Source: Cryomorphaceae bacterium (GTDB taxonomy: Bacteria > Bacteroidota > Bacteroidia > Flavobacteriales > ECT2AJA-044). Taken from it: a DNA stretch of 64,000 nucleotides. The notes beneath the pieces were generated by a model, which was not told where the DNA came from, made no database searches, and was given only the letters and a program-made list of their open reading frames with translations. The stretch's first letter is position 1; each line of letters begins with the position of its first letter. Position numbers and translations under genes: made by a program. The stretch lies in the NCBI GenBank assembly GCA_017798125.1, contig CP059070.1, positions 2,480,001 through 2,544,000 of the forward strand. The letters run 5' to 3'. Of the stretch, positions 44,135 through 47,426 are shown one piece after another.

Positions 44135-44167
44135 ACCACTCACCGGCGAAAGCTTACCACTCACCGG
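44135..44167 (+). promoter_or_regulatory. Predicted LytTR (BtsR/YehT-like) binding site
   Basis: ACCACTCACCGG occurs twice (44135-44146 and 44156-44167), start to start 21 bp. Inside it, ACCACTCA-N13-ACCACTCA fits the site described for E. coli BtsR/YehT, ACC(G/A)CT(C/T)A-N13-ACC(G/A)CT(C/T)A. The operon downstream encodes a LytS-type kinase and a LytTR regulator of that same kind. Confidence 0.75.
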
Positions 44168-44260
44168 ACTCTATCATAATGGAGTACCGGGGGTGCTGCA
44201 CCTTTGAAGCGTACAATGACAGAAACACTTAACACATCACACACTAATTCTTTGTCACAC

Positions 44261-44629
44261 ATGAAAACAGTCCTCCTTACCATCGCACTCGGCCTCGCCA
44301 CACTTGGCGCTAACGCTCAGGCCGCACCAGCTCCACCGGCTTCACTGCTTCAAGTTGCTGTTGAAACACAAGACGAAGTCGTTGACGTCCAATTCAACAA
44401 CCCTTTAGAACAAGACCTCTATATGGTCCTGCTCGGACAAGACGGCCACGTGGTCTTCCGCAAGAAGTGGAAGAAGACGGACCAGTACCACGGGCAGTTC
44501 TTGCTGGCCGATTTCCCAGAAGGGCAGTACACCTTGGAAATGCGCCAAGCGGACACTACGCTGACGCGCGACCTGGTACAGATCGGAAGCACCGCACAGC
44601 CTGAGGCAACTTTAGCGAATAAGCCTTAA
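44261..44629 (+). CDS. Small secreted protein, first gene of LytS/LytTR operon
   Basis: Start ATG 44261 gives 122 residues with a clear signal peptide (MKTVLLTIALGLATLGANAQ). The mature protein has an Ala/Pro-rich start then a beta-sandwich-like part (FNNPLEQDLYMVLLGQDGHVVFRKKW as strands; GQFLLADFPEGQYTLEMRQ) resembling the Ig-like DUF3244 or C-terminal sorting fold, with no sorting signal proper. It sits between the predicted LytTR site and the kinase gene, ten bases before the latter, and is the likely first target of the regulator. Function unknown. Confidence 0.75.
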   Translation: MKTVLLTIALGLATLGANAQAAPAPPASLLQVAVETQDEVVDVQFNNPLEQDLYMVLLGQDGHVVFRKKWKKTDQYHGQFLLADFPEGQYTLEMRQADTTLTRDLVQIGSTAQPEATLANKP

Positions 44630-44638
44630 TTTCCCGCT

Positions 44639-45688
44639 GTGCTGACACGACTCGTAATCTTCTTTCGATGGATCGGATTTGCCGCGCTCATCGCGGTCAC
44701 CTTCCGGTTCATCGTTTTTTTGGTGAAGCTGGTGTACAATCCGTACACCGTAGAGCTGCGTGAAGATCACTTCTTCATCGACGCCCTTTGCGCCTTGGCG
44801 ATCATGGGCATCGACTACCTCTACCGCGAGCGCTTCCGCCAGGCCAATCCAAACATCAGCTTAGGTTCACGCTTTTTCCGCCATTTCGCGGTCTTGGCCT
44901 TTTGGGTAGGTGGATTCATCGTCTTAGCAAGCTATGCCCAGCTTTGGGAAACCGAAGGAGCCTATTACCTCAGCCTTCACTACCTCCAAATCGAAGTCGT
45001 TACGGGTTGGTTGCTTTCCAGCCTATACGTAGCCGGGGTAACCGGAGCATTTATCCTTGATCGCTGGCGTTCTTCCCTTGCTGAAGTGGAGCGCTACAAG
45101 AAGGAAAACCTCCAGGTTCGATTGGAAACCTTGCGCGCCCAAATCAACCCCCATTTCTTGTTCAATTCCCTCAACACCTTGAGCTCCCTGATTCACGAGG
45201 ACCAGGAGCGGGCGACCACGTTTTTGCGTCGCATCTCTCAAGTATATCGGCACGTGTTGGAGATTCGCGATCGGGAAACCGTGCAATTGAGGGAAGAGTG
45301 GCAACTCATGGAGGCCTATAGAGACCTCATAGAGACGCGATTTGAAGACCGCGTGAAGTTCACTACCGAGGTTCCAGACATAGCCTTGGACATGCAGCTC
45401 CCACCTCTTTGTTTGCAGCTCCTCATCGAGAATGCGCTCAAGCACAACGAGGTTTCCCTAAAGCGTCCCCTACATATTGAATTGCGCTACAATGAAATGC
45501 GACGAAGCCTTGAAGTCCGAAACAATTTTCAGCCCAAGCAAACGCTCGAAGAATCGACCCGTGTCGGTCTCAAGAACATCAAGAGTCGGTATGCCGCCCT
45601 CACTACTCGTGAAGTTTTGATTGTACAGAACACTGAATTCTTTTCCGTTGAACTCCCTTTATTATGGCCCAAGAAGAACAATTCTTAA
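44639..45688 (+). CDS. LytS/BtsS-type sensor histidine kinase
   Basis: Starts with GTG 44639; no better codon exists. The 349-residue protein has four membrane helices (about residues 5-33, 45-62, 82-103, 120-142), a short coiled coil, the His_kinase domain with H172 in INPHFLFNSLNTL, and an ATPase domain with QLLIENALKHNEV and a reduced G box (VGLKNIKSRY). It has no extra sensor domain, so it probably senses through its membrane part. It overlaps the LytTR regulator by 25 bases. Confidence 0.92.
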   Translation: MLTRLVIFFRWIGFAALIAVTFRFIVFLVKLVYNPYTVELREDHFFIDALCALAIMGIDYLYRERFRQANPNISLGSRFFRHFAVLAFWVGGFIVLASYAQLWETEGAYYLSLHYLQIEVVTGWLLSSLYVAGVTGAFILDRWRSSLAEVERYKKENLQVRLETLRAQINPHFLFNSLNTLSSLIHEDQERATTFLRRISQVYRHVLEIRDRETVQLREEWQLMEAYRDLIETRFEDRVKFTTEVPDIALDMQLPPLCLQLLIENALKHNEVSLKRPLHIELRYNEMRRSLEVRNNFQPKQTLEESTRVGLKNIKSRYAALTTREVLIVQNTEFFSVELPLLWPKKNNS

Positions 45689-46437
45689 TCATTGAAGACG
45701 AGCCTCACGCGCAACGCGAACTCATGCGCCTCATAGGTGACCTTGAGTCCAATGTGAGCATGACGGCCGGTTTGGAATCTGTAGAAGACGCTGTGGAGTA
45801 TTTACAAAACAACCCAGCTCCAGACCTTATCTTCATGGACATTCAACTGTCCGACGGTCTGAGTTTTGAAATCTTTGACCAAGTGGAGGTCAAGTCACCG
45901 GTCATTTTCACCACGGCCTACGACCAGTTCGCCCTTCAGGCTTTCGGGGTGTACAGCGTGGACTATTTGCTGAAGCCCGTGGAAAAGGACAAGTTGGCGC
46001 ACGCCATTGAGAAGTACCGCATGTACTTTGAGGCTCCTGCCCACTCTACTCCAATGTACAAGGAGCTGGTTCATGCCTTGCGTCATAAAGAAGTGCCCTA
46101 CAAGAAGAGAATGGTAGGCAAAGTGGGGCAACGCCTACGGCACTATAAGGTCGAGGATATCGCCTATTTCTATGCAGAGGACGACACTGTCTTTCTTCGA
46201 GATTACGAAGGGCGAAACAGTATTGTGGAATACAATCTGGAAAAGCTCACCGAAATTCTAGATCCCGAGCTCTTCTTCCGAATCAGTAGAAAGATTATTG
46301 TCTCCATGACTGCAATGGAAAAAATTGAACGCTACGGAGCAGGACAATATATGCTGGAGTTAAATCCAGCTTTTGACGAACGTGTTTTGGTGAGTCGGAG
46401 CCGAACGAAAGAGTTTTTGCAATGGATGGATCAATGA
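45664..46437 (+). CDS. LytTR-family response regulator
   Basis: A 257-residue regulator: receiver domain with D11/E12 pocket, phosphoacceptor D59 (FMDIQL), T and K positions in FTTAYD and LLKPV, and a C-terminal LytTR DNA-binding domain from about 148 (VGQRLRHYKVEDIAYFYAED, then FFRISRKIIVSM and RVLVSRSR). LytTR domains bind paired direct repeats; a perfect pair lies upstream of this operon. The kinase gene overlaps its start, and the next gene overlaps its stop by 4 bases. Confidence 0.93.
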   Translation: MAQEEQFLIIEDEPHAQRELMRLIGDLESNVSMTAGLESVEDAVEYLQNNPAPDLIFMDIQLSDGLSFEIFDQVEVKSPVIFTTAYDQFALQAFGVYSVDYLLKPVEKDKLAHAIEKYRMYFEAPAHSTPMYKELVHALRHKEVPYKKRMVGKVGQRLRHYKVEDIAYFYAEDDTVFLRDYEGRNSIVEYNLEKLTEILDPELFFRISRKIIVSMTAMEKIERYGAGQYMLELNPAFDERVLVSRSRTKEFLQWMDQ

Positions 46438-47426
46438 AAAAGTTCGGCCTACTCTTCGCAGGTTTCCTCTTCCTGGTCGGCTGCAACAACGCCGAAATTG
46501 AGCTGGTGGATGTTCCAGAGAATACTCCGCCTCAAGCCGACATCTATATTTCAGGGAATTTCAATCAGTGGAATCCTGGAGATGAACGCTACCGGATGAC
46601 CTATCGGCCCGAAACCAAGAGCTACTTCGTTCAACTGGGACCGGGTGTCGGAGACATCGAATACAAGTTCACCCGTGGAGACTGGACTTCCGTTGAAGCC
46701 GACAGTTGCGGATATGAAATTGAAAACCGAACACTCTCCGTTCGCGAAGATGCCTTTGCCCGGGTACGCATTGAAAACTGGTCAGACCTCAACCCGAACT
46801 TTTGCAATTTCGTGACCCTTCGGGTCGATGACATTCCATCCTCAACCGAGGATTCCATCTACATCGTCGGTGATTTCAACGACTGGAACCTAGAAGATTC
46901 GCAATTCGGCTTCTTGCCTGCCGGCCCAGGACCCTGGCACATTGTCGTACCCAAAACACAGTTTGGAACGCACTACAAATTTCACAGAGGTTCGTGGAAG
47001 AGCGGAGAAATTGACGCAGAAGGCTACCCCCGAATCAACAGGTACATCGATCCGGAGGATCACGACACCATTCCCGTGCGCATTGAAGGATGGTGGGACC
47101 AATTAGCGGAAGAGCATAATTCGCTGACCTTCGTCGTCACAGATGTCCCCATGAGTACTCCGGATCAAGAGGACCTATACCTCGCCAGTAGTCAGTTCAA
47201 TTGGGAAGTCAATAAAGAAGAGTTGCGCTTCGATCGAACGGAGATTGGCTATGTGTTGACCATCCCTCGTGTCAACTATCGATTTAGCTACAAAATCAAC
47301 AGAGGCAGTTGGGCAACGGTCGAAACCAAGGGAAATGGAGAGGACATTCCCAACAGAAGTTACCTGCAGGGATCTCAGGACACCGTCTTTTTGAAAATCC
47401 GGGGCTGGCACGACAAGGATCGATGA
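46434..47426 (+). CDS. Lipoprotein with three starch-binding-like (CBM20/E-set) repeats
   Basis: ATG 46434 overlaps the regulator stop (ATGA) and gives 330 residues with lipobox (FLFLVGC, Cys near 18). Three repeats of about 100 residues follow, each with a YISGNFNQWNPGD-like start and an RGSW...R-x-W end: from about 35, 135 and 245. The first two keep the G-[DN]-FN-x-W core of CBM20/CBM48 modules; the third is degraded to SSQFNW. A glycan-binding surface lipoprotein is inferred. The esterase two genes downstream carries a single related module. Confidence 0.82.
   Translation: MKKFGLLFAGFLFLVGCNNAEIELVDVPENTPPQADIYISGNFNQWNPGDERYRMTYRPETKSYFVQLGPGVGDIEYKFTRGDWTSVEADSCGYEIENRTLSVREDAFARVRIENWSDLNPNFCNFVTLRVDDIPSSTEDSIYIVGDFNDWNLEDSQFGFLPAGPGPWHIVVPKTQFGTHYKFHRGSWKSGEIDAEGYPRINRYIDPEDHDTIPVRIEGWWDQLAEEHNSLTFVVTDVPMSTPDQEDLYLASSQFNWEVNKEELRFDRTEIGYVLTIPRVNYRFSYKINRGSWATVETKGNGEDIPNRSYLQGSQDTVFLKIRGWHDKDR

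Follow-up and report, generated by a model that had tools for sequence, protein, structure and literature searches.

The whole stretch of DNA that was analysed (the window, 64,000 nucleotides) carries a direct repeat at 44135-44167, in front of genes for a histidine kinase and a LytTR response regulator. The initial annotation read it as an operator like that of E. coli BtsR (YehT), placed before a BtsS/BtsR-like gene pair. This raises the question of which regulator reads the repeat, to what effect, and whether the word is that of BtsR. The features concerned are as follows.

44010-44003, minus strand: TACCTTTG element, able to serve the divergent gene
44135..44146, plus strand: half-site 1 (promoter-distal), ACCACTCACCGG, about -76 to -65 from the predicted start; same letters as half-site 2
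44156..44167, plus strand: half-site 2 (promoter-proximal), ACCACTCACCGG, about -55 to -44 from the predicted start
44199..44206, plus strand: candidate -7 box CACCTTTG, beginning 43 nt after half-site 2 starts
44261-44629, plus strand: gene 1, small secreted protein with a weak DUF3244 match (Pfam E=2.1e-4, below cut-off)
44639-45688, plus strand: membrane histidine kinase (Pfam His_kinase PF06580)
45664-46437, plus strand: response regulator (Pfam Response_reg + LytTR), presumed ligand of the double site
46422-47426, plus strand: CBM-like lipoprotein with a weak AMPK1_CBM match (Pfam), last overlapping gene of the operon

The operon genes are tightly packed, overlapping or at most about 10 bp apart, and gene 1 stands between the double site and the kinase gene. 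The kinase and LytTR regulator expected downstream of the site were both recovered by Pfam. Upstream and divergent from the operon lies a gene for an S1-domain protein, presumably rpsA; the TACCTTTG element able to serve it is >120 bp from the double site.

The two half-sites are identical at 12/12 bases and lie 21 bp apart from start to start, which agrees with the two helical turns first proposed. In 8-mer form the double site reads ACCACTCA-N13-ACCACTCA at 44135-44163 (+), so that the position, the 12 identical bases per half and the N13 spacing were all borne out. Sites of LytTR regulators consist of two 9-11 nt repeats separated by spacers of 11-13 nt (PMC4847170), and the repeat has the layout of a direct-repeat LytTR operator, with repeats of 11 to 12 nt, a 21-bp period and N13 between the 8-mers. 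In dinucleotide shuffles of the window, the exact pattern with a gap of N10-16 gave zero matches, and the N13 pattern with <=3 mismatches gave a mean of 0.41. A scan of the 2.84 Mb genome, suggested earlier as a way to the regulon, returned the exact double site as a single copy, and with ACCAYTCACCG-N10-ACCAYTCACCG at <=3 mismatches the window double site was again the sole match. The sought regulon did not emerge from it: the plain pattern with <=3 mismatches gave 18 matches in this genome vs 29 in controls, and therefore no further regulon is visible there.

Comparison with relatives, also proposed at the outset, tied the repeat to the operon. G041, which belongs to another family of the same order, holds the orthologous operon with a regulator 50% identical, a CBM-like lipoprotein orthologue after the regulator gene, and the double site ACCATTCACCGG-N9-ACCACTCACCGA before gene 1; the regulator also has an orthologue in G001, a congener of the window genome. 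In G468 and G469, from the genus of G041, the double site precedes a small secreted gene and a kinase gene; gene 1 has a homologue in G469, and genes of similar size occur in G041 and G468. Half-site 1 is conserved in these three genomes as ACCAYTCACC[GT], and half-site 2 in all four orthologous promoters as ACCACTCACCG. Between the window and G041 the half-sites are 95% identical, against 40% for the spacer, 37% for the downstream sequence and 49% for the LytTR region. The divergent neighbour is rdgB-like in G041, G468 and G469 vs rpsA in the window genome; since the neighbour differs while the site is kept, it is the operon, rather than the adjoining gene, that the site accompanies. Second double sites, ACCRTTCATCG / ACCATTC[AG]TCG, were observed in G468 (L112) and G469 (L113), the first before a secreted-protein gene, and are possibly extra targets of a LytTR regulator.

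The distance to the promoter is conserved as well. When the promoters of the window, G041, G468 and G469 were aligned from half-site 2, an octamer [CG]AC[ACT]TTTG always began 43 nt after the half-site 2 start (CACCTTTG, CACTTTTG, GACATTTG and CACTTTTG), while the sequence between half-site 2 and the octamer had diverged. The Bacteroidota -7 box is TAnnTTTG, located at -12 to -5 (PMC9723704), so that transcription would begin near 44211, with the double site centred near -60. The link between a LytTR-type double site and a kinase/LytTR operon was thereby strengthened: a second family keeps the site with the operon, and the spacing to the -7 element is that of an activator.

A contrary case was met in G001. 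Loss of the repeat from a relative that keeps the operon had been named beforehand as what would speak against the proposal, and in the region of G001 syntenic with the operon no double site was found, the promoter stretch being replaced by unrelated, repeat-like sequence; but gene 1 and the kinase frame are damaged there too. Gene 1 lacks a signal peptide and the kinase matches fall in two frames (L049, about 470-2320). The damage looks like either decay or a draft assembly error, which are not separable because the assembly is a draft of 140 contigs.

The layout was then followed through 94 LytTR operon promoters of Bacteroidota, with 474 upstream regions as controls. In an unbiased count of repeats (a match of at least 9 of 10, periods 15 to 29), period 21 was found in 23/94 LytTR promoters vs 36/474 controls (Fisher p 9e-6, a value that overstates independence because the surveyed promoters are partly related). 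Each other period from 15 to 29 occurred in 1-7 of the 94, and among the control regions period 21 was itself above the adjacent periods. Most surveyed promoters were without a clear repeat under this strict criterion. A dimer motif model gave a core near C-M-R-Y-T-C-A-N-C, and its counts alone are not decisive because reversed-sequence controls score nearly as well. The TTTG spacing is stronger evidence than the motif model: TTTG, recurring at 46-47 nt, lies 45-48 nt after the half-site 2 start in 19/50 other LytTR promoters where about 1.8 are expected, and it played no part in choosing the sites or in the model. Half-site similarity followed LytTR identity with rho 0.36, compared with 0.19 for the spacer and 0.18 for the downstream sequence.

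Paralogous operon classes carry their own word variants, e.g. CCGGTTCAY, ACARTTCATCC and CATTTCATCCG. Across Bacteroidota, related operons show this layout with a word resembling that of the window. The plain pattern ACCRCTCA-N13-ACCRCTCA had matches in 12 of 395 Bacteroidota genomes and was not enriched among them, reversed-pattern controls matching too; many of the matches were heptad tandem repeats, and none of five non-heptad loci tested lay within about 1.5 kb of a kinase/LytTR pair. Arrays of (ACCACTC)n in G430, G410, G150 and G466 reproduce the 21-bp spacing and can mislead pattern scans. In L102 (G444) and L101 (G442), at 1501, a similar double site precedes a LiaF-like gene or falls at its start; Pfam confirmed the LiaF-like gene of L102, where an apparent membrane-protein gene comes next.

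Most likely, the double site is the operator read by the LytTR regulator of this operon, which would bind it phosphorylated and activate its own genes. The regulator appears tied to the site by linkage and co-variation, and autoregulation fits the linkage, the conservation and the activator-like distance. Once phosphorylated, the regulator would occupy both direct repeats from the same side of the helix, around -60, and recruit RNA polymerase to the promoter with the -7 TTTG element, so that the two-component system would switch up its own operon. The candidate operator and its fixed promoter spacing were shown by comparison; that this regulator binds there, that it is phosphorylated and that it activates instead of repressing is inferred.

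Five LytTR domains are encoded in the genome, and any of the other four could bind the double site, making the operon cross-regulated instead of self-regulated. This is unlikely, since different families keep the double site with this operon, half-sites and LytTR domain of an operon vary together, and a second LytTR operon of this genome, when checked, proved to carry a distinct repeat. That operon (G000:C1, locus L051, about 840-871) encodes proteins of 809 aa and 125 aa, a kinase and a regulator, and its 21-bp repeat, CCGGTTCATAC / CCCGTTCACTC, is followed by CCTTTG at the same distance as in the window promoter.

Some LytTR proteins repress, and the double site is positioned between divergent genes, so that autorepression, control of the divergent rpsA, or action in both directions might be envisaged. 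Such a role is also improbable, a little more so than cross-regulation: a centre near -60 is the position of an activator, as in AgrA (PMC4227749), the element able to serve rpsA lies well away from the site, and in g27 the neighbour gene changes while the double site stays. That the repeat arose by chance or as a low-complexity tandem repeat is hardly credible. Heptads of (ACCACTC)n do give 21 bp as 3 x 7 and make up many of the phylum-wide matches, but the window spacer has no heptads, the repeat is conserved in orthologous promoters with differing spacers, and the shuffles never reproduced the exact pattern.

LytTR regulators are common in Bacteroidota, and no described operators for them were found in the literature searched. 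The window operator is ordinary in kind, and its promoter geometry is unusually clear and phylum-wide. A readable site combined with a fixed promoter geometry would allow targets to be predicted for many uncharacterised LytTR systems. The sequences suggest that a large group of LytTR sites in distant phyla shares a word, by common descent or by convergence. A single ancestral word (about ACCRYTCAYCG, 21-bp repeat), common to a large LytTR clade of Bacteroidota, Actinobacteria and Gammaproteobacteria and used in Bacteroidota as a standard autoactivation module at a fixed -7 distance, is a tentative reading that falls somewhat short of an even chance; if true, it runs against the published view of LytTR sites as alike in layout yet lacking a shared consensus (PMC4847170).

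Among known systems, the match to the BtsR operator word ACC[AG]CTCA-N13-ACC[AG]CTCA is exact, but the proposal of a BtsR code kept over a long distance has to be recast: the window word belongs, as a variant, to a wider LytTR word (about C-M-R-Y-T-C-A-N-C) that occurs in many Bacteroidota operons and in Actinobacteria and takes in the BtsR site. In Actinobacteria (L169, L172, L114, L117), ACCRYTCANCG double sites immediately precede DUF485-type genes that neighbour genes for response regulators (in L169 Pfam confirmed DUF485), and the occurrence of the same word before these transporter genes means that it is not particular to BtsR. The name BtsS/BtsR-like pair had to be given up. The BtsS kinase has 5TMR-LYT and GAF domains (PMC10653868), seen by Pfam in E. 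coli BtsS as 5TM-5TMR_LYT, GAF_2 and His_kinase, whereas neither 5TMR-LYT nor GAF was found in the window kinase by Pfam search; the regulator shares 26% identity with BtsR, and its BtsR-type receiver + LytTR architecture is common to all LytTR response regulators. BtsS/BtsR targets btsT, a pyruvate transporter gene, while the genome's only site precedes an operon that no transporter follows. The btsT (yjiY) promoter of E. coli MG1655, the sequence used as the YehT site (PMC4847170), reads GCCGCTCA / ACCGCTTA / ACCACTCA, and a permissive scan found no double site before E. coli btsSR. The BtsR operator at btsT thus shares with the window a LytTR direct repeat of ACC[AG]CTCA-type halves, 21 bp from start to start, but controls a separate transporter gene, answers to a 5TMR-LYT/GAF sensor and has more variable half-sites.

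The YpdB operator at yhjX is likewise a LytTR tandem repeat, but with GGCATTTCAT half-sites (PMC4847170) and a separate target gene. The paralogous Bacteroidota His_kinase/LytTR operons share period 21, the core C-M-R-Y-T-C-A-N-C and TTTG 46-47 nt from half-site 2, although each class has its own half-site variant. The operators of AgrA differ from the window site in half-site sequence, sensor type and promoter class. In placement they are alike: at S. aureus P2/P3, AgrA binds two direct repeats centred near -60 and activates the operon that encodes it (PMC4227749).
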